A program made the position numbers and the translations under genes. A stretch of 64,000 nucleotides of DNA from Lentisphaera profundi (GTDB taxonomy: Bacteria; Verrucomicrobiota; Lentisphaeria; Lentisphaerales; Lentisphaeraceae). Each line of letters begins with the position of its first letter. The first letter of the stretch is position 1. A model generated the notes under the pieces. That model searched no databases. It worked only from the letters and a program-made list of their open reading frames with translations, and was not told the DNA's origin. The stretch covers positions 682,001-746,000 of the forward strand of contig NZ_CP117811.1 in assembly GCF_028728065.1 (NCBI RefSeq). Reading direction: 5' to 3'. Of the stretch, positions 647-32,565 are shown in pieces.

Positions 647-677
647 ATAGAAGTCCAAATTCATTGAAACTTTAACA
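647..677 (-). promoter_or_regulatory. TGTTAAA-N17-CTTCTAT promoter-like element
   Basis: On the minus strand TGTTAAA is followed after exactly 17 bases by CTTCTAT, about 112 bases upstream of the sialate esterase start. The same two boxes with the same spacing precede six other genes in the window (N18 in one). Two hexamer-sized boxes 17 bases apart resemble a -35/-10 promoter. The sigma factor is unknown. Confidence 0.6.
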
Positions 678-980: not shown

Positions 981-1012
981 TGTTAAGAATTGGCTTCTAG
1001 CTAGCCTTCTAT
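981..1012 (+). promoter_or_regulatory. TGTTAAG-N18-CTTCTAT promoter-like element
   Basis: TGTTAAG at 981-987 and CTTCTAT at 1006-1012, about 40 bases upstream of the GH95 fucosidase start. This is the only copy on the plus strand and the only one with an 18-base spacer. Its orientation matches the gene it precedes, which supports a promoter rather than a random repeat. Confidence 0.6.
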
Positions 1013-5299: not shown

Positions 5300-5412
5300 T
5301 AATATGTTTTAAAAATTTTATACACAAAGGCATCACTTAGTTTTGATAGCCAGTCTTCTCTGCAGATCGCGACTGCTTTCGAGTGAACGGCATGCCTTCA
5401 GCTGTAAATTGC

Positions 5413-5520
5413 TCAATATTTCTTTTGCTTACTCATCTTCTCAAAGATTTTCTTTTCCTCACGCTGCAGATTGTTAATCTGGAGTAAGTCGTCGCTAACA
5501 CGGTAAAATTCATGCCATAT
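5413..5520 (-). pseudogene. Possible decayed C-terminal remnant of a sulfatase-like gene
   Basis: An open stretch of about 35 codons (WHEFYRVSDDLLQINNL... to a TGA at 5413-5415) has the look of the ELYDLSNDPxExxNLA segment near the end of type I sulfatases, followed by a charged tail. It has no start codon and is preceded in frame by a stop. This is a weak call: the match is a remembered pattern over about 17 residues in an otherwise empty 242-base gap. Confidence 0.3.
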
Positions 5521-9887: not shown

Positions 9888-9918
9888 ATAGAAGTCAGAA
9901 AAAGGCTCAATCTTAACA
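9888..9918 (-). promoter_or_regulatory. TGTTAAG-N17-CTTCTAT promoter-like element
   Basis: Minus-strand TGTTAAG and CTTCTAT boxes 17 bases apart, about 86 bases upstream of the FHA-PSD gene of module 1. The flanking sequence out to about 9,990 is also similar to that upstream of the genes at 14,351 and 16,825, so these three sites probably descend from one another. Confidence 0.6.
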
Positions 9919-10000: not shown

Positions 10001-10099
10001 GAAAGGCTTAGGAATGTAGCCATGGAGGTAAGTCCGTGGTATTTGAATAGCAGAATCGTGCGTGCCGAAGCTACGCTGCAGAGCTTTAGCTTCATACCC
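10001..10099. repeat. Repeat A copy between the two FHA-PSD modules
   Basis: One copy of repeat A (GGAATGTAGCCATGGAGGTAAG... to TTTAGCTTCATACC), about 100 bases. It begins after the promoter region of module 1 and ends directly at the stop codon of the module 2 DUF1552 gene. It has the same orientation as the copies at 3.5-4.5 kb and 17.0 kb. Confidence 0.85.
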
Positions 10100-11364
10100 T
10101 AAGCTAAAAATGAAGTCTCTCTGCCTGTACTTTGACCAAAGTTTTTAACATCTACCCCAAGTTCATTGAGAATAGTCAGTAAAGCGTTTGCTAGAGGAAC
10201 TTTCTTCTCATGAGGGCGCACATTGTGTCCTTTCTTTAAGCCTGCAATCGCTCCACCTGTGACGAAAAATGGCATATCTCGGTTGCCGTGACCACTCCTT
10301 AGATTCGATCCACAGATAAAGGCCGTATTGTCAAAAAGGTTTTGACCATTGACATCCTTTGTCTCTTTAAGCTTTTTAATACCATAAGCAAAGAGTTCCA
10401 TATTCGTTTTATCTCTTTGTTCCGCCCAAGTCCTCATCTGTTGACTTGAATTGTAGTGAGATACACCGTGGATAGTAGTATTAATACCTAAACCAGTCAG
10501 CAGAGCCGTGTTCGGTATGGCCAAGGAAGCGACGTTTGTCTGACCCGACTGAAAAGCCAGGGCAATCAAATCATAAGACAGTTTGACATCTTTTATACCA
10601 TCTCTTTTAGCGGCGTATTTAGTCTTACCACCAAGTTTTGTATCAGGAAATGGGTATGGTGCCTTTGGTTTTGGTACAGCGACCCAGTCAAGTTCTCTTT
10701 TCAGTTCGTATTCCATTTGACGAATTGACTGAAAATACTCATCAAGTTTAACTTTATCAGATTTTGTAAGCTGGCTGGAAAAATTATTATAATCTATCTT
10801 TTTTGAATCTAAAACACTTCTCTTTTGCTTTATACGCTGGATTAACTGTGCTTTACTTTCATTGCTACTGAACAGAGTTTTATACAAATCCAAATTTCTT
10901 CGGAAACCAGGTATATAACCACCCCTAAAGTCATAAGATAAGCCCTTGCTATGTCCATCGCTAAAGTCAGATGTATTTAGAACAATATTTTTATAACGAG
11001 CCTCTTTACTTAAGTAGGTTCCTGCAAGAATATCTGCAGAGACGGGACCCATGGCTCTCAAAAACTGGGTGCTGCCATCGTGGGCTGAATGATAGCCAAA
11101 ATTCCTTAGCTTTTCGACCATAGTTATTTCATCTATAAAGGGGCTGAGAGGCTTCATGCTTTCTTCAAGGCCAATTTTGGCAAAGCTCCCCACTGTCTTA
11201 GGGTAAAAATGTGTATCTGAAAAACCATAGCCTAAACCAACGCACAGGAATTTTTTGGGAGTATTTTTTGATTTAGCTGCCTCCGCTTCAAGTGTAGGAA
11301 GCGCTAAACAGGCCGCAGAAGAAATTAAAAAAGATCTTCTAGAAATATTTTTAATAATGCTCAT
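10099..11364 (-). CDS. DUF1552 protein with Tat signal (module 2)
   Basis: DUF1552 family protein of 421 aa, paralogous to the product of 5542-6843. The Tat motif RRSFL lies at residues 9-13 with a hydrophobic region to about 27. Family features include FLCVGLGYGFSD, LSYDLIALAFQSGQTNVASL and ICGSNLRSGHGNRDMPFFVTGG. It starts 14 bases after the module 2 FHA-PSD gene, the same spacing pattern as in module 1, so the two-gene unit was duplicated as a block. The C-terminus ends within a base or two of repeat A, so the last residues may have been altered by repeat insertion. Function is unknown; export and partnership with the PSD protein are inferred. Confidence 0.87.
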   Translation of the reverse strand: MSIIKNISRRSFLISSAACLALPTLEAEAAKSKNTPKKFLCVGLGYGFSDTHFYPKTVGSFAKIGLEESMKPLSPFIDEITMVEKLRNFGYHSAHDGSTQFLRAMGPVSADILAGTYLSKEARYKNIVLNTSDFSDGHSKGLSYDFRGGYIPGFRRNLDLYKTLFSSNESKAQLIQRIKQKRSVLDSKKIDYNNFSSQLTKSDKVKLDEYFQSIRQMEYELKRELDWVAVPKPKAPYPFPDTKLGGKTKYAAKRDGIKDVKLSYDLIALAFQSGQTNVASLAIPNTALLTGLGINTTIHGVSHYNSSQQMRTWAEQRDKTNMELFAYGIKKLKETKDVNGQNLFDNTAFICGSNLRSGHGNRDMPFFVTGGAIAGLKKGHNVRPHEKKVPLANALLTILNELGVDVKNFGQSTGRETSFLA

Positions 11365-11378
11365 GTCTTATTCCTTTT

Positions 11379-14351
11379 TTATTTACTTCTAAATGTTTTT
11401 GAATTTACAACCTCAAGAACCATATCCAGAACGCGGTAATCACGCTTTTTTAATCGCTCAAGACATTTTTCTATTTCGGGCTCATCGATGAATTCAAGCT
11501 TGCGACCTATACCATAAGAGAGCATCTCCTCGAACATCGAACGAGCCAACTTTTCTTTCTGTGTTATCAACTGAGCTTTAAAACCCTCAAGGTCATTAAA
11601 GGTATGACTGGTATCCAAATAACCACTGGGATCAATTTTAACTAAATGTGTATCTTTTCGGTCAGAATCTGGCTGCCTTTTTAGTCTGACCTCTTCTCTG
11701 AAATTCCCCAAATGATCAAAATTTTCGAGTCCATAACCAAGGGGATCAATTTTCTCGTGACATGAATTACACTGCGGGACACTTTTATGAAGGTCTACAA
11801 GTTGCCTGATTGTTTGAGTGCCATCATCTTGAACAGCTAACTGGGGAACATTTGGTGGCGGTGGCGGCGGCGTATCATTTAAGAATTTACTGCGAATAAT
11901 CGTTCCACGAATTGTTGGTGATACTTTTCCCCCATTACTGCCCATGGCCAGAAAAGCCACTTGAGTTAGCACCCCGCCTCTTTTGCTGTTTGCTGGTAAT
12001 TTTACAGCTCGAAAGCCATTAAACTCTCCTTTAATCCCATAGTGATTCGCCAATTGTTGATTGACCACGGCAAAATCCGAATCAATCAAACTCTCAATTG
12101 GTAAATTATTCTCCAACATATACTTAAAATAGTGCAATGGCTCTTTTCTCACGAATTCTCCGAAAGGAGGTTTTATTTCTGCAGCGCTAAGTCTATCTAA
12201 GCCAAACCATTGCCCGAAAAAACTACCCAAGGCTAATTCTCTTTCCTCAGAACTAAGCATTTCCTTTATCTGCTTCGCAACTCCGTCGGCTGACTGCAAT
12301 TCACCTCTTCGAGCCGCCTCAAGTAATTTTTGATCAGGTGGTGCCCCCCACATAAAGAAAGCTAAACGATTAGCATAATCTGGCGCTGCTATCTCTTGCC
12401 CGAGCCCCTTTGAATACTCTTTCATGTATAGAAAAGACGCAGAAGAGAGTACCGTTGCAAGCTGGCTCTTCAGAGCCTCTCCTGGGGCAGCACCTATTTC
12501 CCGCTCACTTCTATAATTCTTAATCAATGAATCGATAAAAGCGTTCGCAGGCTCTACGTTTCGAAAGGCTCGATCACAGAATTTGACTAAGGCCTCTCTT
12601 AGCTGCTTATCGCTAACAGACTTGTTACTAATAATAGGTTCAAAGCATTCTTCAAAATGGGACTTCTCGGTTTCGATTGGCTCCAAGAGAAAATAATCAA
12701 AATAACCATTTTCGGGTGCATATACAACAAAACCACGCTTATGACTTGTTTGGTATTTATCATATACTCTATGTTTGTCTAATAACAGTGAACCAGTAAT
12801 GATCACACTTGCTTCATGTCTCTTTTTGGTGGAATCAAACTTTAACTTTAGGGCTTCAGATCCCTCAAAGCTAAGAGAGCCAATTTTGTCACTACTGCCA
12901 AAAGTCACGACAGTAAATTTATACTTTTGACCCGGAGCTACAGTAAAGTTACAGACAATTCTGTTATTTGCCCCAAATTCAAGATTTTCATCAAGTAAAC
13001 CCCTTATCGCTCTAGGAACGAGAATACGGCCTACTTTACCAGGGTACTTTTTTTGCATTGCCTTCACTAAATCTTTTTGTGTGTAGGAACGGTATTTTTC
13101 TATATCTATTTCACCTTTAGTAAATTGATCGAACTGCCTCTTCATGTGCTTCCGCTGAAACACCTCAGGATCAAAACGTTGCTTAGCTGTATACTTCCTT
13201 TTCTCGTTTATAGAAACATATGCAGAGCTAAGAATATCAATTGCCTTGGTATAATAAATCTTTTGGTGATTGATGGTGAAAAACTGTTCGCTGCCGTCAG
13301 TATCCAAACCCTCTGGCGAGTCAGAGGGCAAATTTTGTGTACTTAAGGGTGCGCCAAACAAATCAGCTATACTCCCCTTGTATTCGCGTCTATTTAAGTG
13401 ACGCATCGTAATAACTCCGCCAGTAGAAGCAAGCTTTTCTTGGGCTTTTTGAAGCCTGTTCGTAAGCTCCCCAATGACTCCAGAAAGTTCTTTTTTTGAG
13501 GGTTGTTTTTCATCTTCAGGTGGCATATCCCCACCATTTATTGCATCCAAAATCTCTCGCCAATGGCTAATGGCTTTATGGCTTGAAATAGCAAAATCAC
13601 TATCATCTATTCTGAGTTTGCCTTTCTGTTTCTTGTCATTGTGACAGCTAAAACAATACTTATCTATATAATCATAGAGCACGTCTCCAATTAAAGGCTT
13701 CGGCTTAGCAGCAACAAGGGTTTCAGTTTTGGCTTCTGGAGTAAATTTTTCGCTAAGCGGCACTACCTGAGCTTCTGGGCTTTCTATTTTGTCAGCAAGT
13801 TCAGTTGGCGCTGTTTTAGTGTTGACATCCTTTGGAGCTTGGCTCAATTCCTTCTGCCCGACAACACAAGCGGCCAATACCACGCCAGTAAAGATAGCTA
13901 GGCTTAGCGCCTTAGAAAAGCCTTTCTTCTTTTGGTGTTTGAGCTTCTGTCGAGCTTTATTTTTCGATGAAAATTTTTGAGCTGTCTCTACTGCTTTAAG
14001 CGGCTGTTTTTTTTCGGCAGCAAAAGTAACTAAAGGTTTTTCTTTAAGCGAGGCAATTACCTCTTCAGTAATCAGTACAACAAACTCTACTTCTGCCAGT
14101 TTAATTGTATCGTAGTCGCTAAGATTTGCTTTATGCTCTACTTTTTGTCCATTGATGAAAATGCCATTAGTACTTTTGGCATCAATCACCATCCACTGAC
14201 CATCTAGCTTTTCGATATGAGCGTGTTTAGATGAAATCCCCGGCTCAGGAATGACGAGTAAATTACTCTTATCACTGCCAATGCTTATAATCGACTGATC
14301 TGTATCTAGCTTTCTGCCTTTTAGCGAGCCGTTTAAAAATACAAATTTCAT
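11379..14351 (-). CDS. FHA-TM-PSD cytochrome fusion protein (module 2)
   Basis: A 990-aa paralogue of the module 1 fusion. The FHA domain spans residues 1-95 (IGSDKSNLLVI, GISSKHAHI, KSTNGIFING). A basic linker with KHQKKK precedes one transmembrane helix at about 147-164. The extracytoplasmic part has heme motif CFSCH (233-237), DUF1587 (MRHLNRREYKGSIADLFG), DUF1595, DUF1592 (RLAFFMWGAPPDQKLL), DUF1588 (RGGVLTQVAFLAMGSNGGKVSPTIRG...PPPPPPNVPQL), a second motif CNSCH (861-865) and DUF1585. Both FHA domains have GS where classical FHA domains have GR, while the S/H and N-G residues are kept. First gene of an operon with DUF1552. The pair duplication argues for a selected function of the whole module; what the heme domains do is unknown. 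Confidence 0.88.
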   Translation of the reverse strand: MKFVFLNGSLKGRKLDTDQSIISIGSDKSNLLVIPEPGISSKHAHIEKLDGQWMVIDAKSTNGIFINGQKVEHKANLSDYDTIKLAEVEFVVLITEEVIASLKEKPLVTFAAEKKQPLKAVETAQKFSSKNKARQKLKHQKKKGFSKALSLAIFTGVVLAACVVGQKELSQAPKDVNTKTAPTELADKIESPEAQVVPLSEKFTPEAKTETLVAAKPKPLIGDVLYDYIDKYCFSCHNDKKQKGKLRIDDSDFAISSHKAISHWREILDAINGGDMPPEDEKQPSKKELSGVIGELTNRLQKAQEKLASTGGVITMRHLNRREYKGSIADLFGAPLSTQNLPSDSPEGLDTDGSEQFFTINHQKIYYTKAIDILSSAYVSINEKRKYTAKQRFDPEVFQRKHMKRQFDQFTKGEIDIEKYRSYTQKDLVKAMQKKYPGKVGRILVPRAIRGLLDENLEFGANNRIVCNFTVAPGQKYKFTVVTFGSSDKIGSLSFEGSEALKLKFDSTKKRHEASVIITGSLLLDKHRVYDKYQTSHKRGFVVYAPENGYFDYFLLEPIETEKSHFEECFEPIISNKSVSDKQLREALVKFCDRAFRNVEPANAFIDSLIKNYRSEREIGAAPGEALKSQLATVLSSASFLYMKEYSKGLGQEIAAPDYANRLAFFMWGAPPDQKLLEAARRGELQSADGVAKQIKEMLSSEERELALGSFFGQWFGLDRLSAAEIKPPFGEFVRKEPLHYFKYMLENNLPIESLIDSDFAVVNQQLANHYGIKGEFNGFRAVKLPANSKRGGVLTQVAFLAMGSNGGKVSPTIRGTIIRSKFLNDTPPPPPPNVPQLAVQDDGTQTIRQLVDLHKSVPQCNSCHEKIDPLGYGLENFDHLGNFREEVRLKRQPDSDRKDTHLVKIDPSGYLDTSHTFNDLEGFKAQLITQKEKLARSMFEEMLSYGIGRKLEFIDEPEIEKCLERLKKRDYRVLDMVLEVVNSKTFRSK

Positions 14352-14498
14352 CTTTGAAGCTCAAATAGGCTAGCTTCATGAGCAAACTTAGAATTGGTCA
14401 ATGTCATATTTTGATCCTTAAATTTTTCTAATAGAAGGACGAATAGAAGCGGACCTTAACAGCAATTTTAAATAAAATTCAATACTTAGCTATATCCT
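14338..14498. repeat. Promoter-region duplication, copy 1
   Basis: About 160 bases, from within codon 6 of the module 2 FHA-PSD gene through its 5' leader and TGTTAAG/CTTCTAT element to ...CAATACTTAGCTAT, are repeated almost exactly at 16,809-16,970 in front of the SGNH hydrolase. The first six codons (MKFVFL) are part of the shared block. Confidence 0.88.
14431..14461 (-). promoter_or_regulatory. TGTTAAG-N17-CTTCTAT promoter-like element
   Basis: Minus-strand TGTTAAG and CTTCTAT with a 17-base spacer, 80 bases upstream of the module 2 FHA-PSD gene. A second CTTCTAT lies within the spacer but only 5 bases from the TGTTAAG box. The site lies within the duplicated block shared with 16,809-16,970. 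Confidence 0.6.
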
Positions 14499-14841: not shown

Positions 14842-15355
14842 CAATACTTCATAATAGGAAGCCCTAAATAAAACTTGCTTTGTCTCGTAGGCTACTATAA
14901 ATTAGCTATAATAAGTAAATAATGGAGCAAGTTATGTCTAAATCATTTAATCAAATTTATGTGCACATAATTTTCCATGTGGGCAAAAGTGCAATTATAA
15001 AAAGTGACACGGAGAGTGAATTATATGCCTACATGAGAGGACTAAGTAAAATTTTATCTAGTCAGATTTTGGAAATGAACGGCACCGATAATCATGTTCA
15101 TATTTTAGTTTCATTATCACCTACTATTTCTGTGGGGGAGTTTGTTAATAAAATAAAAAGTAATTCATCAAGATGGATGAAGAAGGTAGATAAAGATTTT
15201 AGTTGGCAAAGAGGCTATGGGGCATTTTCGGTTAGTTCGAGCGTTTGTGTAAAGGTTAGACGCTACATTAAGAAACAGAAAGAACATCATAAAGTTATTT
15301 CATACCAAGATGAATTACAGAGTTTTTTAGAGCATTATAATTTAGAGTGAGGTAT
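14842..15355 (+). mobile_element. IS200/RAYT-like unit inserted in a repeat B hairpin
   Basis: Uninterrupted repeat B copies read GTCCGGCATAT-AC-CGGACCC (for example at 21,580-21,600). Here the left part GTCCGGCATAT ends at 14,841, the transposase gene follows, and CGGACCCAAGTTTGGGCCC resumes at 15,356. So a unit of about 514 bases sits in the loop of this 6-bp-stem hairpin. The boundaries come from comparing filled and empty copies; one or two bases of ambiguity remain because TAT occurs at both edges. The unit holds only the Y1 transposase gene. Confidence 0.75.
14934..15350 (+). CDS. IS200-like HUH (Y1) transposase, REP-associated type
   Basis: Single-strand DNA transposase of the IS200/IS605 TnpA group, to which REP-associated tyrosine transposases belong. 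The HUH motif is HVH in TDNHVHILV (about residues 54-56), and the nucleophile is the Tyr in RRYIKKQKEHH (about residue 111), followed by the typical EHH. GYGAFSVSSS is also a family signature. The start at 14,934 is chosen because GGAG lies six bases upstream; an ATG at 14,922 would add four residues. The 138-aa length fits IS200. The gene lies inside and between repeat B copies, so it could act on those hairpins. It could equally be an ordinary IS200 element that used the hairpin as a target. Confidence 0.88.
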   Translation: MSKSFNQIYVHIIFHVGKSAIIKSDTESELYAYMRGLSKILSSQILEMNGTDNHVHILVSLSPTISVGEFVNKIKSNSSRWMKKVDKDFSWQRGYGAFSVSSSVCVKVRRYIKKQKEHHKVISYQDELQSFLEHYNLE

Positions 15356-16002: not shown

Positions 16003-16150
16003 GCGCCAGCTGTCGATGCGCTTCAATCCGGTTTCGGTATGCTGTCCATTTGCATTGATGCGCTCAAGCCTGGCAACATCATCCAATGCACCGCCCACAA
16101 ACATCGTGTATCCGCTTGAAATAGAATCACCGATGAGTAATACCTTGGGG
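16003..16150 (-). pseudogene. N-terminal fragment of a second SGNH hydrolase
   Basis: Minus-strand reading gives KVLLIGDSISSGYT, then VGGALDDVARLERINANGQH and ETGLKRIDSW, the block I and following segment of SGNH/GDSL hydrolases. It resembles the same part of the intact gene just upstream but is a different sequence, so it is a second family member. It is joined to the intact gene's tail at a run of four C residues (16,147-16,150), where the frame shifts, and to a pilin fragment at 16,002. It looks like the scar of an internal deletion. Confidence 0.7.
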
Positions 16151-16825
16151 AAGGACTGTGCGAGGCGGAGCGGCAGCCTCTCCCGAAACCGCGATCATGA
16201 TATGTTTAGCGACTTGTTTTGCGTGTTCTTTGCGGCCCTCGGTGTTGAAGTGAACGTCATTATCTGCAAGAGCAAACTCATTGCGCCTGGCTTTTGTGAA
16301 GGAATGCAGATCATTCACCTGAATGCCATGTTTCTTCATTACGCGCTCAGCAGCATCCAGATATGTCTTTTCTATTTCAGGTGTCAGGGTGATTCCGCCG
16401 GTGCGTTCCGCTTTCGGGCAAATCGTCGTCGTTGTGGCCCAGATAAGCTTGGCTCCTGTTTTCTTCAAGCGGAGAACCAAGGTTTCCAGCCTTTCTTCAT
16501 AAGCCTTTGGACTCCTATCGACCTCCATATACCGCCATCCATACATGTCCCATAAGCCCCAGTTGAAATGAATGACATCCCATTCAGTAGTTTCTAACCA
16601 CGTATCAATATGGGCGATACCTCTCATTGTAGGCCCTGCATTTCCTTTGTGATGCTTCACAATCGCTTTTCCATTTAACTGCTTGATAACATAGGGCGTA
16701 TACTGACAGGAAATGGAGTCCCCAATGAGCAATACCTTGGGAATACCCGTATCCAGCAGAGTTTGTCCCTCTGGCTGAGCTACAGTCGTTACAGCGGCGA
16801 CAAGCATTAAAAATACAAATTTCAT
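16127..16825 (-). CDS. SGNH/GDSL-type hydrolase, secreted
   Basis: SGNH-fold esterase of 232 aa with signal peptide (about 1-18). Block I is KVLLIGDSIS, the central block HFNWGLWDM supplies the Asn/Gly region, and the C-terminal DVHFN supplies the Asp and His. The fold suggests removal of acyl groups from glycans, which fits the neighbouring enzymes. The last 15 or so residues run into a foreign SGNH fragment and are probably not native. The first six codons and the promoter region are a duplicate of those of the FHA-PSD gene at 14,351, so the gene seems to have acquired its promoter and first codons by recombination. Substrate unknown. Confidence 0.78.
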   Translation of the reverse strand: MKFVFLMLVAAVTTVAQPEGQTLLDTGIPKVLLIGDSISCQYTPYVIKQLNGKAIVKHHKGNAGPTMRGIAHIDTWLETTEWDVIHFNWGLWDMYGWRYMEVDRSPKAYEERLETLVLRLKKTGAKLIWATTTTICPKAERTGGITLTPEIEKTYLDAAERVMKKHGIQVNDLHSFTKARRNEFALADNDVHFNTEGRKEHAKQVAKHIMIAVSGEAAAPPRTVLPQGITHR

Positions 16826-16970
16826 CTTTGAAGCTCAAACAGGCTGGCTTCATGAGCAAATTCAGAATTGGTCAATGTCATATTTTGATCCTTAAATTTT
16901 TCTAATAGAAGGACGAATAGAAGCAGACCTTAACAGTAATTTCAAATAAAATTCAATACTTAGCTATGTA
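16809..16970. repeat. Promoter-region duplication, copy 2
   Basis: Nearly identical to 14,338-14,498, including codons 1-6, leader and promoter element. Beyond 16,967 the similarity switches to the sequence upstream of the module 1 FHA-PSD gene (GTACAAGTTTTA-TCACACAAACAAAT, 9,950 region) and then to repeat A. The segment is therefore a mosaic of the two FHA-PSD upstream regions. Confidence 0.85.
16905..16935 (-). promoter_or_regulatory. TGTTAAG-N17-CTTCTAT promoter-like element
   Basis: Same boxes and 17-base spacer as at 14,431-14,461, 80 bases upstream of the SGNH hydrolase. It arrived as part of the duplicated block and so is not independent evidence for the motif. Confidence 0.55.
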
Positions 16971-17637: not shown

Positions 17638-18378
17638 TCACCACAGCGTCGGCTGCGTGAGTCCGTCGAATCGAAAATTGTCAATCCCCCAGTTAGTGGA
17701 TCTATTCCAGGGATGACCATTGGTGTTTTGATTAAAACCAATCATTTGAGGATTGCTGAATATATACGTATAATTCATTGCTTTGACATGACCGTCGACA
17801 AATAGCGCATTAGCTTTGTTCCCAACATGTCGGGGAGCTATAACATTGGTATTGTAATAGATGTCAGCACGGCCGTGGGCATCCATGGTAAAAATGACTT
17901 CGGAGGGGCTTACTGCACCCAAGCCACTGAGCGACGACACTTCCCTAAGGTAGCGATTCATGGGAAAACTGGCCTCCCAAATCATGCTAGTGATCCAAAA
18001 ATCTCTGTTTTGCGAGGGACAGAACCATAGGTCCATGTTTCGGACATAATTATAATCATAAATACCTTTATAGCCTTTGGTTCCTCCAGGTCCTGTTAAT
18101 AGCGTCGGCAGAGGCCCGTTTGGGCCGCCAGAACGATAATAATTATTGCCGTTATATCCCATACCACTTGGCAAGAATCGATTGTCATTATCATCAAGAT
18201 ACATGAAGTTAGCCATACCGATTTGTTTTTGCTGACTGACGCATACCGCTTTTCTTGCTTCGCCTCTTGATTTAGAAAGCATGGGAGCCAAAAATGAAGC
18301 AAGGATACCAATAATCGCAATGACTACCAGTAATTCTATGAGGCTAAAGTGATTTGTTTTTGTACAATTATTTTTCAT
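17638..18378 (-). CDS. DUF1559 prepilin-like protein
   Basis: Type IV pilin/type II pseudopilin-like protein of 246 aa. It has the prepilin N-terminal motif FSLIELLVVIAIIGILA just after a short basic leader, and a C-terminal DGH motif with a histidine spaced before it (RHVGNKANALFVDGH), close to the H-X9-DG signature of this PVC family. Such proteins are very numerous in Lentisphaera and relatives and probably form surface or secretion pseudopili. The start has AAGGA-like sequence upstream and a TGTTAAG/CTTCTAT element 32 bases away. A nearly identical C-terminal copy is present as debris at 15,833-16,002. The gene is divergent from the ECF sigma factor. Confidence 0.88.
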   Translation of the reverse strand: MKNNCTKTNHFSLIELLVVIAIIGILASFLAPMLSKSRGEARKAVCVSQQKQIGMANFMYLDDNDNRFLPSGMGYNGNNYYRSGGPNGPLPTLLTGPGGTKGYKGIYDYNYVRNMDLWFCPSQNRDFWITSMIWEASFPMNRYLREVSSLSGLGAVSPSEVIFTMDAHGRADIYYNTNVIAPRHVGNKANALFVDGHVKAMNYTYIFSNPQMIGFNQNTNGHPWNRSTNWGIDNFRFDGLTQPTLW

Positions 18379-18409: not shown

Positions 18410-18440
18410 ATAGAAGTCAGTTTAAATCAAGATCTTAACA
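18410..18440 (-). promoter_or_regulatory. TGTTAAG-N17-CTTCTAT promoter-like element
   Basis: Minus-strand TGTTAAG, 17 bases, CTTCTAT, followed by a very AT-rich stretch. It lies 32 bases upstream of the pilin-like gene start. Outside the boxes it is not similar to the sites at 14.4 and 16.9 kb, so it counts as an independent occurrence. Confidence 0.65.
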
Positions 18441-18586: not shown

Positions 18587-19174
18587 ATGGATAATTGGAA
18601 TACAAGAGAGTCTTTACTTCTACGAGCATCGGATCCAGATAATCACGAAGCCTTTGAAGAGTTCGTTTATTATTACAAAAATTTTATCAGCATGGTTTTT
18701 TCTAAGCTGGGTGTGCAACAAAGTCAAATTGATGACCTCCGGCAGGATCTTTTAATTAAACTTTGGAAAGACATCGGCAAGTTTGATTCGACTCGGGAGA
18801 ATTCGAATTTTCGCGGTTGGCTGAGTGTGGTTATGAGGCATGAAGTTTATCGTTTTTTTCGAAAAAATAAGAGTGATAAGAAGGAACTCAGTGATACAGA
18901 TTTGGACTTATCGCAAGAAAGTGAAATTGATCAAATGATTGAAAAAGAATGGAAGGCTTATGTTACTTCTTTGGCGGTAGAAAAAATCAAAGCTCATTTT
19001 GATGGCAATGCCCTGAAAGTCTTTTATCTCACTTTAGAGGGCAAGAATGCTGCCGCTATTGCTGTTGAGTTAGAGATGTCCGAAAACTCTGTCTATGTAC
19101 TTCGTTCAAGGGTAAAAGCTCGTTTTCAAGGTGAGATCCGCCAATTAAGGTCACTACTAGAGAATCATCAGTGA
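18587..19174 (+). CDS. ECF RNA polymerase sigma factor (kinase-linked type)
   Basis: Sigma-70 family ECF factor. Region 2 spans roughly residues 15-85 (EFVYYYKNFISMVF, DDLRQDLLIKLWK, FRGWLSVVMRHEVYRFFRK). Region 4 lies near the C-terminus (KNAAAIAVELEMSENSVYVLRSRVKARF). I choose ATG 18,587 (MDNWNTRESLL) because AGGA sits five bases upstream and relatives start this way; an upstream ATG at 18,560 is in frame. Its stop overlaps the GTG start of a Ser/Thr kinase by four bases, so the two are translationally coupled. ECF factors paired with Ser/Thr kinases are known to be switched on by phosphorylation rather than by anti-sigma factors. It is a candidate to read the TGTTAAG/CTTCTAT promoters, but its own upstream region lacks that motif. 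Confidence 0.9.
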   Translation: MDNWNTRESLLLRASDPDNHEAFEEFVYYYKNFISMVFSKLGVQQSQIDDLRQDLLIKLWKDIGKFDSTRENSNFRGWLSVVMRHEVYRFFRKNKSDKKELSDTDLDLSQESEIDQMIEKEWKAYVTSLAVEKIKAHFDGNALKVFYLTLEGKNAAAIAVELEMSENSVYVLRSRVKARFQGEIRQLRSLLENHQ

Positions 19175-21216
19175 CTCAGGAAACCGATAAATTTATTGCC
19201 ATTCCCAAAAACCTTGATTATCGAGCGACGGATTTTTATGATTTAGAGGAAGATGAGCGAGATACGCAATGTACTCAGCTCTATGAAGAATTTGCTGATG
19301 TTAATAAGCGCTATACGGAAGTGGCTGAAATTGCTTCTGGGGGGATGAAAATCATTTCTCGAGCCTATGATCAAAAGACCGGGCGTTATGTGGCTATGGC
19401 GTCGGTTAAAGAAAATTTAGGAAAAGAACCCTACGGTCCTTTTCTTGCAGAAGCACGGCTGACGGCGGCACTGCATCATCCCAATATTATCAAAGTTCAT
19501 GATATAGATTACAGAGATGATGGCAGTCCGTATTTCACCATGGACCTCAAGTTAGGAGATTCATTAAACGAAATTCTGAAGAAATTGCAGCAAGGTGTTG
19601 AGTCCTACACAAATTTATATACGACGGAATCACTACTCAATATTTTTATTAAAATTTGTGATGCGGTCTCCTATAGCCATGCTCAAAGTATTTTGCATTT
19701 GGATATAAAGCCGGAAAATGTTCAGGTAGGTGAACATGGTGAAGTACTGCTTTGTGACTGGGGCTTGGCACGTCAGCTTGGCGACAAAACTACAGACAAT
19801 GATGATCTTTTGAGCATGGAGTTTCTCAATGGTCAGACACTGGTCGGCAAAGTTCGAGGAACACCTGGCTTTATGGCTCCCGAACTTCTCAAAGACAAGA
19901 AAAAAAGAGCTTTGCAGTCAGATGTTTACGCATTGGGCGCAGTGCTTTACACAATCCTGACTTATCAGAATCCGATTGATGGTGATGTTCAGACGGTACT
20001 TTTGAAAACTAAAAATGGCGATATTATAGCTCCGATTGAGCGTTGCCCAGATAAAGCGATTCCCAAGAGTTTGAATGCGGTGGTGATGAAGGCTATGGCT
20101 TATGATAAACACGACCGTTACGCCACGGTGAATGAGTTTACTGAGGATGTCAGGAAATATTTATTTGGTTATGCGACAAGCGCAGAAAACGCGGGTTTTT
20201 TGAAAGGCTTGATGCTATTTTATAAACGCAATAAAAATGCTAGTCGAATTGCCGCTACTTCACTTTTTATTCTGATGATGTTTGTTTATGCCTTTATTAT
20301 CAAGCTTGAAAAGGCCAGGCTGAATGAATATCAACTGCGATTGACTGCTGAGCAGCAGAGAAAAATAGCCGAGGATAATTTTCAAAAATACAAAGAGGAA
20401 AAAGAGCTAGCCGATTTAAGTCTAGCGGCTGACCCGAGCGTGGTTCTTGCTAAGATAAAAGAGTATTACCATAGTCATTTTCTGGATGCGCCGAAAGCAA
20501 CACTTGATCATGTGATGAAATCCCTCGAGCGCATTAAAGAATCCAATGACAGCGCTATTTTACTTTATGAATTCAAGGGAGATGTACACTTTGTCAGGGA
20601 AGAGTTTGATTTAGCGCTCAAAGAACTTCAAAAAGGACGAGGAGCCGAAGAGAACCCCAATTTATTTAAAGCATTAAAATCAGTTGAAGATTATCAGAGT
20701 AGTCAGCAAGCAGCACCGATAGCAGTGATCAACACTGTTTTAGATAAGTTGAGTGGTGATTTTGTTCAACAGCAGGTCCGGATGATGATTTATGATGGGG
20801 CAGTAAGAGCCAAAGATGAAGATCATCTTCAATTAGTAAAGCGAGTCTTCACGGAAGTTAATCGAGTTGATGTACTCGATGAATTTAGCTATGATTTTGA
20901 AACTAAAACTTTAATAATAGATGGTGATTTTGTGCGCTGTAGTACTTATATTGCGCAGTTTGATCAAGAAGTTTCACTCTTATCGACTTTGGGACCAGAG
21001 CACCTCATTATAAAAGGGACGGAGCGCTTAAATACACCCAGCCTCGGTGGCTTGAATTTAAAAACGCTTGATTTGAGTGGAGTAAAATTAGATAATCTGT
21101 ATAAGTTTATCAAAAGAGGGGTGACTGAAAAACTCATTATCAATAAAGCGACAACGGATCCCGAGCTTTTAAAGCTTTTGAAAAAAGAATACAAGATCGT
21201 TTTTAAACCTGAGTAG
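19171..21216 (+). CDS. Transmembrane Ser/Thr protein kinase, ECF-coupled
   Basis: PknB-type kinase of 681 aa starting at GTG. The kinase domain spans about residues 48-330 with catalytic HLDIKPEN (Asp178), DWG in place of DFG (196-198) and MAPE (235-238). The VAIK lysine position reads VAMA (Ala77), although Lys80 is close by, and the glycine loop is short (IASGGMKII). A transmembrane helix (358-378) is followed by a coiled coil, a TPR-like helical region, and a C-terminal part with leucine-rich periodicity (LKTLDLSGVKLDNLYKF). Catalytic activity is plausible but should not be assumed. It probably senses an extracytoplasmic signal and phosphorylates the sigma factor encoded just before it. 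Confidence 0.9.
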   Translation: MTQETDKFIAIPKNLDYRATDFYDLEEDERDTQCTQLYEEFADVNKRYTEVAEIASGGMKIISRAYDQKTGRYVAMASVKENLGKEPYGPFLAEARLTAALHHPNIIKVHDIDYRDDGSPYFTMDLKLGDSLNEILKKLQQGVESYTNLYTTESLLNIFIKICDAVSYSHAQSILHLDIKPENVQVGEHGEVLLCDWGLARQLGDKTTDNDDLLSMEFLNGQTLVGKVRGTPGFMAPELLKDKKKRALQSDVYALGAVLYTILTYQNPIDGDVQTVLLKTKNGDIIAPIERCPDKAIPKSLNAVVMKAMAYDKHDRYATVNEFTEDVRKYLFGYATSAENAGFLKGLMLFYKRNKNASRIAATSLFILMMFVYAFIIKLEKARLNEYQLRLTAEQQRKIAEDNFQKYKEEKELADLSLAADPSVVLAKIKEYYHSHFLDAPKATLDHVMKSLERIKESNDSAILLYEFKGDVHFVREEFDLALKELQKGRGAEENPNLFKALKSVEDYQSSQQAAPIAVINTVLDKLSGDFVQQQVRMMIYDGAVRAKDEDHLQLVKRVFTEVNRVDVLDEFSYDFETKTLIIDGDFVRCSTYIAQFDQEVSLLSTLGPEHLIIKGTERLNTPSLGGLNLKTLDLSGVKLDNLYKFIKRGVTEKLIINKATTDPELLKLLKKEYKIVFKPE

Positions 21217-21242
21217 TTCACTTCAGGTTCTGCAGTGTCACC

Positions 21243-21383
21243 TTATAGTAGGGAGCTTAAGCACATGCCGACGGTATGTAGTAGGGTAGCCACCGGATTC
21301 ATCCGGTGGGTATGGTTAAAAAAATAATATTCATGCCGAAGGTATGATGGAAACGCTCTGCAGCATAGTTTCGGCACGCACGA
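21243..21383. repeat. Inverted repeat A fragment with hairpin
   Basis: Repeat A elements in reverse orientation: CATGCCGAAGGTATGA, CGCTCTGCAGCATAGTTTCGGCACGCACGA, and the perfect hairpin CCACCGGAT-TC-ATCCGGTGG at about 21,289-21,308. This is the only repeat A block on the opposite strand. Confidence 0.75.
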
Positions 21384-21488
21384 TGAACCTAGAATCCATG
21401 CACCTGATGCAAATTTAGAAGCGGGGCATCTGTAGAAGGCTAATTTATTGGTGGTCTCTTTACCAATATAAGGTTCGAGCATTTGCTA
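21384..21488 (-). pseudogene. Internal fragment of a DUF1559 pilin-like gene
   Basis: About 33 codons (QMLEPYIGKETTNKLAFYR, then CPASKFASGAWI) match residues 77-110 or so of the intact pilin at 21,998-22,708 ([21 protein letters not shown]). A stop precedes the fragment in frame. It is sandwiched between an inverted repeat A block and a repeat B array, with no flanking coding sequence left. Confidence 0.75.
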
Positions 21489-21990
21489 GCGTAATAAGAC
21501 TCCAACCCGGCATATATCAGCGTGTGGCGTGAGCCACAGGTATAGTTTGATGCAATGAAGCGAGGGCTCATGAATGTGAGTCCGGCATATACCGGACCCA
21601 AGCTTGGGCCCTAAACTAATTCTAAACCAGTTTCACGCCCCTGACGGAGCATGCTACATAATGTCGGACTCACAAGTGAGCCCCTTCCCAAAATCAGATT
21701 TATTTAGTCATGCCCCTGACGGAGCATGCTACATTATGTCGTTGCGGAGCACCTAGAACTGAAGGTCCGCAATAGTGTAGCCTGTGTTGTATTCTCCTAG
21801 AGCGGAACAATTAGGGTCGTAGACCCAGCATATATCAGCGTGTGGCGTGAGCCACATGTATAGTTTGATGAAATGAAGTGAGGGCTCATGAATGTGAGTC
21901 CGGCATATACCGGAGCCAAGTTTGGGTCCTAAACTAATGCCAAACCTGTTTTCACGCCCCTGACGGAGCATGCTACATTCTAGTTTAATG
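21489..21990. repeat. Repeat B array
   Basis: Contains uninterrupted copies of the GTCCGGCATATACCGGAC hairpin (21,580 and about 21,898). CRCCCCTGACGGAGCATG hairpins start near 21,634, 21,709 and 21,953, and there is also GGGTCGTAGACCC. Units recur in the order GTGAGTCCGGCATATACCGG, GGGCCCTAAACT, CGCCCCTGACGGAGCATGCTACA, GTCGGACTCACAAGTGAGCC. No gene. Confidence 0.87.
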
Positions 21991-21997
21991 CATATAT

Positions 21998-22708
21998 TTA
22001 AAAAGCACTTTCTCCGATGGCAGCTTCAAAGAATGGTGTCCAGGTATTTCTATATGGCTTAGTAGACCGCCACTCGTCTGTTGGGATATAAGCTTTTACC
22101 ACACTTCCATCGGTAACAGCTAGGTTGAAATATCCATGATTGCCATGAAAGTCACCTTTAGAGGTCTCCATCACAAAATCATACATAAAAGGTTTTCTAC
22201 TTGAATGCTTGAATGGAGGTAGATGTCCTGCGTTCCAATTGTGAATCGTCAAATTATCGAGCGTCTGTGGACGACCGTAGTTTGAACGCATAAAGCCGTT
22301 GTAGTTTCTTCCATTAGAGGCACCTGCGATCCATGCTCCATCACCACTGTTGTACTCTGAACTAGGGCATCTATAAACGGCTAATTTATTATTCACGTCA
22401 TCTCTCCCTAAGTAGGGTTCAAAAATTTGTTCACCACTTTCGTAAAATTGACCCGACTCTGCTCCGTCGTTCCAAGCGGTCGCTACCATGAATTGACCGC
22501 GTAAATGGTGAGCATAAACTTTGTTTTCATTATCATCAGCAAAGAGCATTTGAGTGATATAAAGTTGCTTGAGGTTATTTTTACATAGGACTTCTCTAGC
22601 TTTCCTTCTAGCATTGCTTAGCGATGGCACCAGTAGCGATGCCAAGATGCCAATAATGGCAACAACGACGAGAATTTCAATCAGTGTGAATCTCTTTTTA
22701 AGCTGCAT
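21998..22708 (-). CDS. DUF1559 prepilin-like protein
   Basis: Pilin-like protein of about 236 aa with prepilin motif [20 protein letters not shown] after a basic MQLKKR leader. The N-terminal helix continues into [15 protein letters not shown], standard for the family. The C-terminal [14 protein letters not shown] is a degenerate form of the H-X9-DG motif. I choose ATG 22,708 because GAGG lies six bases upstream; an ATG at 22,726 would add six residues before the basic leader. A TGTTAAG/CTTCTAT element lies 41 bases upstream. It stands alone between two repeat B arrays. It probably belongs to the surface pseudopilin set; partner unknown. Confidence 0.87.
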
Positions 22709-22748
22709 ATCTGACCTCAATATCATTAATTAAGTGTATACCTTTTAT

Positions 22749-22779
22749 ATAGAAGTCACAAGCTTGATCAATCTTAACA
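22749..22779 (-). promoter_or_regulatory. TGTTAAG-N17-CTTCTAT promoter-like element
   Basis: Minus-strand TGTTAAG at 22,773-22,779 and CTTCTAT at 22,749-22,755 with 17 bases between, 41 bases upstream of the pilin-like start. An independent occurrence, since the flanks differ from the other sites. Confidence 0.65.
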
Positions 22780-22794
22780 ACTAATAAATATTTA

Positions 22795-23057
22795 TTGATG
22801 AATTGAAGCGAGCGCTCACGAATGTGAGTCCGGCATATACCAGAGCCAAGTTTGGGCCCTAAACTAATCCCAAACCTGTTTTCACGCCCCTGACGGAGCA
22901 TGCTACATAATGTCGGACTCACAAGTGAGCCCTCACACAAAATTAGATTACTCATTCATGCCCCTGACGGAGCATGCTACAATCTGTTGGTGCGGAGAAT
23001 TAAAAATCACCTGATAGTACGCTTAGCCAAGTACCGCACTGAGTAATATCAGCGTGG
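22795..23057. repeat. Repeat B array, degenerate at its right end
   Basis: Copies of GTGAGTCCGGCATATACC (22,823) and of the CRCCCCTGACGGAGCATG hairpin (about 22,883 and 22,957). After about 22,990 the match weakens; a short AATATCAGCGTGG at 23,045-23,057 still resembles the ATATCAGCGTGTGG unit of the array. The IS110 element appears to begin right after it. Confidence 0.75.
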
Positions 23058-23126: not shown

Positions 23127-24224
23127 ATGGAAATGTATAACTCAAAAACGAAATATCATTGTGGAATTGACCTTCACAAGTCATCTGCTCATATTTGTGT
23201 CATGGACAAGGAAGGAAATATAATGCTGCATAAAAACATCCGAGATAATAATTTTGTCTATATGAAGAAGGTCTTGGCGCCTTATGTCGATGACCTCACT
23301 ATTGCTTGTGAGAGCACTTATAATTGGTACCCTCTTGCAGATTTTTGTCGTTCAGAGAATATTGAATTCACTCTTGGTCATGCGCTCTATATGAAATCTA
23401 TTCACGGAGGAAAAGCTAAAAACGATAAAATTGATAGCAAAAAAATCACTGATTTATTACGCACGAATTTATTGCCTCACGCCTATGCTTGCCCAGCAGA
23501 ATACCGCTCTCATAGAGACCTCTTACGAAGGCGTATAAAGTTAGTGCAGTCCAAGTCTGGAATATCAGTCTACATGAATATTTTTGAGCAACAAAACGAG
23601 CTAAAAGAAAGTACTTTATACATGAGGTCAAAACCAGATAAACTAGAAAGTCTAGTAGAACATCAGGACTTTTCTGGGATAGGTGGCATCGCGATGGAAC
23701 GGAACTATCAGCTCAACACAAATCTATTGATGGCTTATACAAAAGAGTTGATCGCAGTGGATAAAGATCTCAAAGAATTCACTTTAAATAGTGCCTACAA
23801 TGAAGAATTTGAAATAGTAAAGTCAATGCCTGGAGTAGGCGATACCCTTGGTATGGTCATTATCTATGAAACTCACGACATCAAAAGGTTTAAAAGCCCA
23901 GGTAAGTATTCAAGTTATTGTCGAGTGATTAAATGTAAAAAAGAAAGTGCGGGTAAAAGTTATGGTTATAGTGGAGCAAAAATAGGTAATCCATTTTTAA
24001 AATGGGCCTATAGTCAGGCTGCCGTACTATCAAAAAGAAACCCTTTGATGAAAGCTTTTTCAAATGACCTAATAAGGCAACACGGCGAACGTAAAGCTAG
24101 AGCTATTTACACTCATAAGATTTGTCGATCAATTTATTTCATGCTCCAGAGAAAACAAAAATTTGATCCCATTGATTTTTTTGGAAGACAAAAATATGAA
24201 CGTTTACAAAGACTAAATAATTAA
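23127..24224 (+). CDS. IS110-family DEDD transposase (bridge-RNA-guided recombinase family)
   Basis: Transposase of 365 aa. The N-terminal RuvC-like domain carries D14 (CGIDLHK), E62 (CESTYNWY), D100 and D103 (KNDKIDSKK), the DEDD set of IS110 enzymes. The C-terminal domain has MPGVGDTLGMVII and ESAGKSYGYSGAKIGN, the region that supplies the catalytic serine in the family. IS110 recombinases are known to be guided by a bridge RNA encoded in the element's noncoding end. The gene looks intact, with AGGAAA ten bases before the ATG, so the element may still be active. Confidence 0.92.
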   Translation: MEMYNSKTKYHCGIDLHKSSAHICVMDKEGNIMLHKNIRDNNFVYMKKVLAPYVDDLTIACESTYNWYPLADFCRSENIEFTLGHALYMKSIHGGKAKNDKIDSKKITDLLRTNLLPHAYACPAEYRSHRDLLRRRIKLVQSKSGISVYMNIFEQQNELKESTLYMRSKPDKLESLVEHQDFSGIGGIAMERNYQLNTNLLMAYTKELIAVDKDLKEFTLNSAYNEEFEIVKSMPGVGDTLGMVIIYETHDIKRFKSPGKYSSYCRVIKCKKESAGKSYGYSGAKIGNPFLKWAYSQAAVLSKRNPLMKAFSNDLIRQHGERKARAIYTHKICRSIYFMLQRKQKFDPIDFFGRQKYERLQRLNN

Positions 24225-24706: not shown

Positions 24707-26683
24707 TTAATCGACATAGGTGAATTTGATGAGAGGCATTTTTCGGATGAACTCGTTTGGGATTTGACCTTTTTTAATGACGATTTCTTCTAGGCCTTTA
24801 ATCGCATAGAAGCGTTCGAATTCTACTATTTTACGATCGACTAAAATGAGTTTTTTTACATAAGTAAAGCTGATTTTTTCAGGGGAGAATGAGCCTTTTC
24901 CACTGAGGTCGAGGGAACCAATAGTCATCCCTGCAAGAGCCATGAATTGATCGGCTTTATTGTGATTCTTCAAGGAGAAGGAAGTGAAGATTTGACCTTC
25001 TTCAGTGTCGTATTGAATATCCCAAAGCTCTTGATGGGGGTTTGTTTTCTTTATGGTCTGAATAATTAAGTTGAGTCGTGATTCACGGCTTTGGGGGATT
25101 TCCATACGAGTGCGCATAATCCCGCTGGCAATCCAAGCATGCTGCTTGAGTTTTAAGTCAAAAAATAGTTGGATCATGAGCTCATTGCTAAAGCCACTGA
25201 TAGTGGGACTCAATTTGGCGTATTTTCTGAAAATAGGAACGCACTTTTTCATGAAATCAGTCTGTGTGAGGTGGGTATCATAAGTTTTGATGGCTTCGGG
25301 GAAATTGCCATTAAAAACGTGAAGCATAAACATTTTTTCGTAGAGTTCGATCCTATTCGGGGTGGCCTGGATAGCGACTTCTAATTGTTTTTCATAGCGA
25401 TAGTATTTCCATTTATCGAGTCCCACGGGAACTTTGCTAATCCATTCTGAAGTGAGTTCGCCGAATTGCTTGCGTTCACTTTTTTCTTGCTTATATAAAC
25501 TAAAATTACTTTCGCTCTGGAGCAGAGCTTTCTCGGTGGCGATTTTTGATTCGGTAGCGGCTGTTAAAGCTAAGCGGGTATTGGATTCACTCTGCTGTAA
25601 TTTTGTGATGAAAGTGAGGGTGAGCATAAATATGATGATGAGAGAAGCAGAAATCAATAAACAGATTTTCATGTGGCGTTGAAAAATTAACTTACTGAGA
25701 GTGAGTAAATTGGCATTCTCGGCTTCAGTGGCAAAGCCATCGAGGTAAAGTTCAATTTCGTGCTGGAGGTCCTTAACTTGCTGATAGCGCACATCGGGAT
25801 GATTGGACATAGCTTTCATACAAACGGCATTTAAACTCGAGGGGATCTTGAGTTCGGGGCAACGCTTGAGGGGGGAAGTGAGTTTGCGTTCTAAACGAAT
25901 ATCTTGTGAGCCGAAAGGGCGCTTATAGGTGAGTAAGCTATAGAGGATTCCACCCAAAGAAAAAATGTCGGTACGTTCATCAGTTATTTTATGCTTGGGA
26001 TCGAATTGTTCTGGCGCCATATAGGAAGGCGTGCCATTAATCGTGTCAGGGATAGTAATATTATTTTCGGAGAGCTGATTACTATCATTTTCGGGAATAT
26101 AGATTCGCTTTGCGATGCCCCAGTCATGGAGCAGAACTTCGCCAAAACTATCGATTTTGATATTTTCAGGTTTGAGATCGAGATGAATGATTCCCCGTGA
26201 ATGAGCATAGGAAACCGCATCACAAATTTTAATGAAAATTCGCAGGGATTGATTGAGCGTGAAATGCTTTGATTCTTCAAAAATATAGTGATTTAAATTA
26301 TCTCCCATCACTAATTTCATAGTGAAAAAGGGGCTCTCCATGACGCCGACATCATAGACCGGGATAATATTGGGATGCTCGAGTAAAGCACTCATTTTTG
26401 CCTCGCGCACGAACTCAGCTTGATGTAGCTCAAGGGGACGATCTTCGCGCAGGAAAGCAATGGCTAAATGACGGCAGCTTTTGCGGTCGTAGGCTTTGAA
26501 AATAGATTTCAGACCACCATCAGCCACTTTGTCGCCAATTTGGTAACGCTCTTCGGGAAGTACGGGATCAAAAGAATCGTCGAGCTCTTCATCGTGAATA
26601 TTTTCATAGAGAGAACCCAGGCGATCATCGATGTGAAAACAGGCTTCGTGAATGAGTTCTTCTTTATGAGTTTCGTCAGGCAC
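24707..26683 (-). CDS. Transmembrane Ser/Thr protein kinase (orphan)
   Basis: Kinase of 658 aa, similar in layout to the ECF-coupled one at 19,171. The kinase domain spans about residues 46-320 with HLDLKPEN (Asp169), DWG (187-189) and MAPE (222-225). The VAIK lysine position reads LAIA (Ala76), as in the other kinase. A transmembrane helix at about 335-360 is followed by a coiled coil, a helical domain and a C-terminal leucine-rich-like part (IGSLDLSGKGSFSPEKISF). No sigma factor is adjacent; upstream and divergent space is a short AT-rich gap. The shared Lys-to-Ala change suggests a subfamily with altered ATP binding or a pseudokinase-like sensor. Its partner is unknown. Confidence 0.88.
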   Translation of the reverse strand: MPDETHKEELIHEACFHIDDRLGSLYENIHDEELDDSFDPVLPEERYQIGDKVADGGLKSIFKAYDRKSCRHLAIAFLREDRPLELHQAEFVREAKMSALLEHPNIIPVYDVGVMESPFFTMKLVMGDNLNHYIFEESKHFTLNQSLRIFIKICDAVSYAHSRGIIHLDLKPENIKIDSFGEVLLHDWGIAKRIYIPENDSNQLSENNITIPDTINGTPSYMAPEQFDPKHKITDERTDIFSLGGILYSLLTYKRPFGSQDIRLERKLTSPLKRCPELKIPSSLNAVCMKAMSNHPDVRYQQVKDLQHEIELYLDGFATEAENANLLTLSKLIFQRHMKICLLISASLIIIFMLTLTFITKLQQSESNTRLALTAATESKIATEKALLQSESNFSLYKQEKSERKQFGELTSEWISKVPVGLDKWKYYRYEKQLEVAIQATPNRIELYEKMFMLHVFNGNFPEAIKTYDTHLTQTDFMKKCVPIFRKYAKLSPTISGFSNELMIQLFFDLKLKQHAWIASGIMRTRMEIPQSRESRLNLIIQTIKKTNPHQELWDIQYDTEEGQIFTSFSLKNHNKADQFMALAGMTIGSLDLSGKGSFSPEKISFTYVKKLILVDRKIVEFERFYAIKGLEEIVIKKGQIPNEFIRKMPLIKFTYVD

Positions 26684-32468: not shown

Positions 32469-32565
32469 AAGTCACACTAATGTATTGCTTAAACTTGTGC
32501 AAGCTTTGATAAAGTGCTTTCTTTCTTTATACTTTTACGATGAATGTATATAATGAGGTGTATTT

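Follow-up and report, generated by a model that had tools for sequence, protein, structure and literature searches.

The ECF-kinase gene pair

The window analyzed here, a stretch of 64,000 nucleotides corresponding to C1:682001-746000 of the 5.46-Mb, two-contig genome of Lentisphaera profundi, contains an ECF sigma factor gene joined to a kinase gene, with pseudopilin genes on the opposite strand.

18587..19174, + strand: ECF sigma factor gene, first of the pair (ORF call, Pfam, NCBIfam; start common to 4/4 orthologues)
19171..21216, + strand: membrane Ser/Thr kinase gene (ORF call, Pfam, NCBIfam)
17638..18378, - strand: pseudopilin gene, divergent from the ECF gene, regulon member (Pfam, NCBIfam)
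21998..22726, - strand: second pseudopilin gene, regulon member (Pfam, NCBIfam)

The ECF ORF could begin at 18560 or at 18587, and the latter (MDNWNTR) is the start found in all four orthologues. Its product consists of regions 2 and 4 only, in about 200 amino acids, and matches Sigma70_r2 (Pfam, 1.8e-10) and TIGR02937 (57.6 bits against a cut-off of 42.9), meeting the criteria for an ECF (group 4) sigma factor. The kinase matches Pkinase (Pfam, 5.9e-35), and its best NCBIfam matches are the bacterial PknD/PknB models. As read from the sequence, a cytoplasmic kinase domain is followed by a single hydrophobic segment near residues 357 to 375 and by a C-terminal sensor-like part in which no fold was identified. 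An AlphaFold2 model of the kinase was poor (mean pLDDT 55) and offered nothing interpretable beyond secondary structure.

An earlier note on this DNA had described a four-base overlap of the two genes and the lack of an anti-sigma gene, and both descriptions held. The ORFs share 4 bases, which is not special, as the overlap is exactly 4 bases in 6 of the 31 same-strand pairs of this genome and most of the others lie within ~15 bases. No anti-sigma-like gene was seen among the neighboring ORFs, with Pfam scanning limited to 8 proteins encoded near the pair and 10 regulon proteins. Three observations lie outside that note, namely, the absence of the usual catalytic lysine from the kinase, the presence of about fifty such pairs in the genome, and apparent private promoters at several others.

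A probable promoter motif clustered around the pair

A spaced heptamer pair, TGTTAAG-N17/18-CTTCTAT, recurs around the two genes. Its sites in the window, with the genes that they precede, are as follows.

18410..18440, - strand: promoter (TGTTAAG-N17-CTTCTAT) of the pseudopilin gene 17638-18378; same 31-mer before the orthologous pilin in G004
22749..22779, - strand: promoter of the pseudopilin gene 21998-22726, inside a short spurious ORF
16905..16935, - strand: promoter of the SGNH-hydrolase-like gene 16127-16825, near copy of the 14431 promoter
14431..14461, - strand: promoter of the FHA-PSD cytochrome gene 11379-14351, followed by the related gene 10099-11364
9888..9918, - strand: promoter of the FHA-PSD cytochrome gene 6857-9802, followed by the DUF1552 gene 5542-6843
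981..1012, + strand: promoter (N18) of the GH95 fucosidase-like gene 1052-3430
647..677, - strand: one-mismatch promoter of the secreted-protein gene C1:680868-682535, which leaves the window at its low end

These comprise six exact sites and the one-mismatch site at 647-677, in keeping with the seven-gene promoter class first proposed; the pilin promoter said to lie about 150 bases away on the other strand is the one at 18410-18440, 147 bases before 18587. The product of C1:680868-682535 reads like a sialate O-acetylesterase, although no Pfam scan was made of it. The ECF gene itself has no TGTTAAG/CTTCTAT site.

When all 5.46 Mb were searched with gaps of 16 to 18, seven exact sites were found, all within C1:668921-704779, a span of 36 kb around the ECF-kinase pair; a control pattern in the same scan gave one site. 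Under a uniform spread, the odds of seven sites falling in 36 kb are about 6e-13, and a scan of the window that allowed gaps of 10 to 22 found its 6 exact sites against none in 100 shuffles. With the gap fixed at 17 and at most one mismatch, seven of the eight sites in the genome lie in the cluster interval. Two additional one-mismatch sites with a gap of 18 (C1:676535 and 680542) lie ahead of a gene for a small secreted protein and one for a cytochrome, which brings the cluster total to 10 probable promoters. A consensus, cTGTTAAGat-N15-CTTCTATt--AAAA, was derived from 29 sites (at most one mismatch, gap 17, in all contigs of four genomes fetched for the motif, with G005 excluded); the spacer is poorly conserved, and the sites lie mostly 22 to 112 bases upstream of genes.

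Pfam scanning of 10 regulon proteins identified a GH95 catalytic domain, ThuA, DUF1552, a cytochrome c protein, and DUF7133 proteins, one of which also carries ThuA; 2 of the 10 had no match or only matches below the cut-off. Two proteins begin with an FHA domain, followed by planctomycete-type cytochrome domains of the PSD and PSCyt families. FHA domains bind phosphothreonine, so we infer that the kinase might also act on proteins of its own regulon.

The motif cluster follows the orthologous ECF in relatives

Six genomes of the order were compared, including that of L. profundi (G000). Motif sites number 7 in G000, 4 in G004, 1 in G005, 0 in G001, 8 in G002, and 7 in G003. Orthologues of the ECF (at least 70% identity) are present in exactly G004 (83%), G002 (71%), and G003 (70%), and in all three the orthologue sits on a site-bearing contig, among the sites, with some G003 and G004 sites on other short contigs. 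G005 and G001 have no orthologous ECF, and the single G005 site, 653 bases from a 70-amino-acid ORF, looks accidental. Several sites precede the same gene families in relatives, where a sulfatase is among the cluster targets. In some orthologous promoters, both heptamers are retained and the spacers have diverged; the promoter before the ECF-adjacent pilin is identical over all 31 bases between G000 and G004. A locus search returned no loci with a single ECF as the query and 2 with the four orthologues, both coinciding in position with the G002 and G003 hits.

The pair had been put forward as the best local candidate to drive this promoter class, and the motif is indeed clustered around the orthologous ECF in three of three relatives, with 0 and 1 sites in the two genomes without it. 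Orthologous pairs lacking the motif, the outcome set beforehand as a refutation, were not encountered. So tight a fit is what a sigma-target relation predicts, as far as comparative sequence from a small sample of six genomes in one order can indicate.

Two other ECF genes, the kinase-less C1:666839-667471, which adjoins the outermost site, and 31893-32468 in the window, are close enough to the cluster that either could be the one that reads the promoters, leaving the 18587 ECF a bystander. At the motif clusters of G002, G003, and G004, no orthologue of either was found in the fetched stretches, the only ones searched, which gave just 27-35% matches, to the 18587-type ECF. By contrast, the motif cluster and the 18587 ECF are present or absent together in six of six genomes. 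We regard a bystander role as very improbable.

Another account takes the motif for an activator or repressor site read with the housekeeping sigma factor and attributes the ECF linkage to hitch-hiking in a horizontally moving cluster. Block inheritance of the cluster would give some of the co-occurrence pattern. Nevertheless, the two conserved heptamers, the fixed 17-base gap, the promoter-like distance to genes, and the diverged spacers speak against this account, as does the finding, described below, that other ECF modules carry different dyads of the same geometry, and we give it only a slim chance. Recognition of the motif by the 18587 ECF is the reading that we retain.

Other ECF-kinase modules and their candidate promoters

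The genome contains 51 ECF-kinase pairs whose members lie within 2 kb, and in 31 of these both genes are on the same strand with the ECF first. Pilins lie within 3 kb of 12 of these 31 pairs, compared with 6.8 expected, a modest link given that the largest of 300 random draws was 14. Upstream regions of the modules were scanned for spaced hexamer pairs, within the genome and between orthologous modules. These scans replaced a de novo dyad scan of whole neighborhoods, in which palindromes and AT-rich dyads prevailed and no module other than that of the window stood apart.

In the own-genome scan, in which random region sets served as the control, 10 of 35 modules reached p<0.05, with 1.75 expected; the other 25 did not. 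Among 25 orthologous module pairs with G004 or G005, for which empirical p values were taken against 10,831 mismatched pairs, 8 were at p <=0.007 (about 0.2 expected), one more was at 0.046, and 16 did not reach 0.05. The eight pairs represent seven ECFs of the L. profundi genome and six different dyads, one being shared by two neighboring ECFs. The window module reached only p=0.022 in the first scan and 0.006 in the second, because its distant sites count as background.

Three dyads stand out most clearly. The first, CTGTCC-N17-ACGAA, is represented by 5 sites in G000, by 3 in G005, and by 4 in G004, with 5 elsewhere among 1008 regions; its sites precede pilins, a sulfatase, and other genes, and it is conserved beside 87-88% identical orthologous ECFs in G005 and G004. 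With the stricter pattern CTGTCC-N17-ACGAAW, four of four genome sites are within 10 kb of its ECF. Of three G004 sites of the CTGTCC/ACGAA type, two (on C5 and C27) are not accompanied by such an orthologue. The ECF on G004:C21 (61% identical) was set aside as the orthologue of the C1:435691 ECF in favor of the better match on G004:C3 (86.7%).

For the second, CTGTCAA-N16/17-CAGTTA, both genome sites lie beside its ECF, preceding sulfatases and a pilin; there are three in G005, conserved before the orthologous sulfatase and pilin, and none elsewhere. The third, ATCCAA-N15/16-CTGTAA, has 3 and 4 sites in its orthologous pair and 5 elsewhere. For TGTTAM-N15-GGGTTTA, four of five genome sites are beside its ECF, and conservation of this dyad in relatives was not seen. 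Neighboring modules at C2:500-532 kb share a GGGTTTA -10 element, so not every promoter is private and cross-talk is possible. Together, these patterns suggest that at least several other ECF-kinase pairs read their own local promoter, while many show none that is detectable. They would provide a natural collection of sigma-promoter pairs, apparently distinct from one another within the same cell, in which to read out how ECF specificity diverges.

A relocated lysine in the kinase

Two codons of the kinase gene are of note.

19348..19350, + strand: encodes Lys60, the lysine of WNK type, in the GGMK of the Gly-rich loop (PKA position 55); invariant in 17/17, K in 45/52
19399..19401, + strand: encodes Ala77, which occupies the place of the beta3 VAIK lysine (PKA 72); invariant in 17/17

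The two residues are 17 positions apart, which satisfies the criterion for the WNK lysine position. In an alignment of 52 kinase ORFs from the fetched stretches, 45 combine Lys at the last position of the Gly-rich loop with Ala at the beta3 lysine position; six of the remaining seven have the canonical Gly and Lys, and one, possibly misaligned, has Gly and Val. Among 40 kinases of the L. profundi genome, the swap is present in 33 of the 34 with an HLD catalytic loop and in none of the 6 with HRD or YRD. Of the same-strand, ECF-first pairs, 29 of 31 have a kinase with the swap (27 scored automatically, plus two overlapping pairs that had been labeled kinase-first and were reassigned by coordinates). 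Both exceptions have canonical HRD kinases, and there is also a canonical HLD kinase next to an ECF, which shows that the swap is not obligatory. When the kinase alignment was used to search 145 genomes of the phylum, 56 gave matches at 1e-60. Of 20 kinases sampled from these, chosen to favor strong full-length matches, 15 have the swap, 8 of those 15 adjoining an ECF, and 5 lack it; the family with the swap thus extends beyond the order and is not always linked to an ECF.

The same shift, from position 72 to position 55, characterizes the WNK kinases, which the available part of Kannan 2007 (PMC1821047) calls the only functional eukaryotic-type kinase family lacking K72. We propose from the alignments that the kinase, whose activity is inferred, is a WNK-like variant in which the lysine that anchors ATP has shifted out of strand beta3 and into the Gly-rich loop. 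It shares with WNK the Lys at PKA-55 in place of PKA-72 but differs in being bacterial, in having Ala rather than Cys at beta3, and in having HLD rather than HRD. Convergence is likelier than kinship, although no tree with WNK sequences was made. A bacterial family with this swap makes the evolution of that active site directly testable.

Loss of the beta3 lysine is also a usual criterion for a pseudokinase (PMC12599244, as far as its accessible text goes), and a kinase unable to phosphorylate could hold or release the sigma factor by binding, in the manner of a membrane anti-sigma factor. The membrane location, the lack of a visible anti-sigma gene, and the acidic residues kept in region 2.2 of the sigma factor would suit such a role. 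Conversely, K60, A77, E94, H176-L177-D178, K180, N183, and D196 are invariant in 17 of 17 full-length kinases, as is P237-E238 (APE), so that the alpha-C Glu, HxDxKxxN, DxG, and APE are all present; Lys60 is the only invariant N-lobe lysine and stands at the WNK position (PMC1821047, in the part available); and a dead kinase is not expected to keep its catalytic residues in dozens of paralogues. The bacterial Ser/Thr pseudokinase families ActPs1-3, GLW, CP1, DYD, and DLHK, in the accessible account (PMC12599244), likewise have an altered ATP-binding lysine; the present kinase differs in its intact HxD Asp, Asn, and DxG Asp and in the invariant replacement lysine of its Gly-rich loop. We consider a pseudokinase unlikely, though not to be dismissed, and continue with a WNK-like kinase that is inferred to be active.

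Region 2.2 of the sigma factor and the route of activation

The pair resembles the ECF43 systems EcfP-PknT and EcfK-PknS, in which, according to the accessible portions of PMC8999054 and PMC13147305, an ECF gene stands beside a gene for a membrane Hanks-type kinase without an anti-sigma gene, an arrangement that is the hallmark of ECF43, and the sigma factor is thought to be activated by its own kinase. In the same sources, the phosphorylation that activates the sigma factor falls in an uncharged region 2.2 and, for EcfK, also in the sigma2-sigma4 linker. The present kinase differs in lacking the beta3 lysine, and the L. profundi genome carries about fifty such pairs, with local catabolic clusters as targets.

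If activation were of the EcfP type, phosphorylation in region 2.2 would supply the charge needed for RNA polymerase binding. Besides the shared gene arrangement, two features fit: the D at the first DAED position is lost (Q or H) in the orthologues, and Ser46, just before the motif, is conserved in four of four. However, region 2.2 reads QIDD, HVDD, QSGD, and QSGD in the four orthologues, with at least one acidic residue in each, and most paralogous ECFs keep an acidic motif; it is not the uncharged STTA or QTTA with a phosphorylatable Thr, so the ECF43 criterion is not met and the EcfP model does not transfer simply. Moreover, Ser112 in the linker is also conserved in all four orthologues, at a place comparable to the linker sites of EcfK. 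We judge the EcfP route rather improbable. A family-wide scan for phosphosites found an N-terminal Thr that is invariant in 48 of 48 ECFs and may be structural. Direct phosphorylation at another site and control by binding both remain possible.

A proposed self-contained regulatory module

We think it probable, in the absence of transcription or biochemical data, that the locus is a self-contained module in which the membrane kinase senses, the ECF encoded upstream of it is activated, and the ECF drives a local cluster from a private promoter. The proposal builds on the pair, the motif, their joint occurrence, and the lysine swap, all of which comparative sequence documents, and adds inferences to them. 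The kinase, its activity itself inferred, would sense a signal from beyond the inner membrane; from the GH95 gene in the cluster, we infer that this is probably released in the breakdown of a glycan that contains fucose. It would then act on the ECF encoded just upstream, most likely by direct phosphorylation. RNA polymerase carrying the ECF is inferred, with support from comparative genomics, to read TGTTAAG-N17-CTTCTAT, and the genes transcribed would be those for pseudopilins, the GH95 hydrolase, FHA-PSD cytochromes, and DUF1552 and ThuA-type proteins, with a sulfatase in relatives. Few ECF-kinase regulons are known, and the locus offers a defined regulon, with its promoter sequence, for a class that is large and unstudied and that belongs to marine bacteria rich in sulfatases.

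ECF-kinase operons as such are already known. A literature search, which did not extend to most subscription journals, turned up no account of this regulon, none of an ECF-linked kinase whose lysine has been relocated, and none of Lentisphaerota ECFs with private promoters. This is weak evidence that the lysine swap, the count of pairs, and the private promoters are undescribed. In Rhodopirellula, the ECF RB138 and the kinase RB140 rise together in a stress time course (PMC2754498), and the sulfatase wealth of such bacteria is well documented (PMC6388578); neither source, in the parts accessible, describes ECF-kinase-promoter wiring. Our confidence is evenly divided on the broader claim that the Lentisphaerales have a new architecture, in which each of dozens of paralogous ECFs of a single genome would be paired with a WNK-type-lysine kinase, many with a private promoter for an adjacent glycan cluster, such that regulator, sensor, promoter, and targets co-evolve as a unit and the kinases constitute an independent, catalytically active origin of the WNK site outside eukaryotes.

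Polysaccharide utilization loci under local ECF/anti-sigma control occur in Bacteroidota. There, as in the module proposed here, a sensor-regulator pair governs its own neighboring glycan-degradation cluster, but a kinase takes the place of the anti-sigma factor and TonB transducer, and pseudopilins that of SusCD. Such a locus is a possible reading of the present cluster, which has a GH95 gene and shared promoters but in which many members are cytochromes or pilins.

Additional ECF sigma factor and kinase genes

Besides the ECF-kinase pair at 18587-21216, the following loci carry related genes (window positions unless marked C1, the contig of the window).

24707-26683 (-), second kinase with the lysine relocated as in the 19171-21216 kinase (from beta3 to the glycine-rich loop), preceded by a sulfatase gene
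31893-34479, another pair, ECF and kinase, divergently oriented
C1:666839-667471 (outside the window; 4839-5471 of stretch L015), ECF gene at the regulon's far edge

No ECF gene lies within 5 kb of the second kinase, which could belong to the relocated-lysine kinase family as an orphan. The glycine-rich loop of the kinase in the divergent pair also contains a lysine, and a scan of upstream regions of own-genome modules for spaced hexamer pairs revealed no dyad private to this pair. The ECF gene at the regulon's edge, with no kinase gene inside 30 kb, is an orphan regulator candidate for the cluster on its opposite flank.

FHA proteins and degenerate sequences

6857-9802 (-) and 11379-14351 (-), fusions of FHA and planctomycete-type cytochrome domains
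53918-56083 (-), FHA-containing protein (FHA assigned by eye), its middle occupied by a long tract of SSE repeats
21220-22000 and 22698-22955, degenerate repeated sequence, pseudopilin gene remnants
14922-15350 (+), IS200-type transposase-like ORF
23127-24224 (+), IS110-type transposase-like ORF

Both fusion products apparently have a membrane segment between their FHA and cytochrome domains; they would place a phosphothreonine reader within a regulon inferred to be under kinase control. Motifs of the CTGACGGAGCATGCTACAT type recur in the two degenerate stretches, which look like a duplicated, decayed pilin region. The transposase-like ORFs were named by eye, without a family search.
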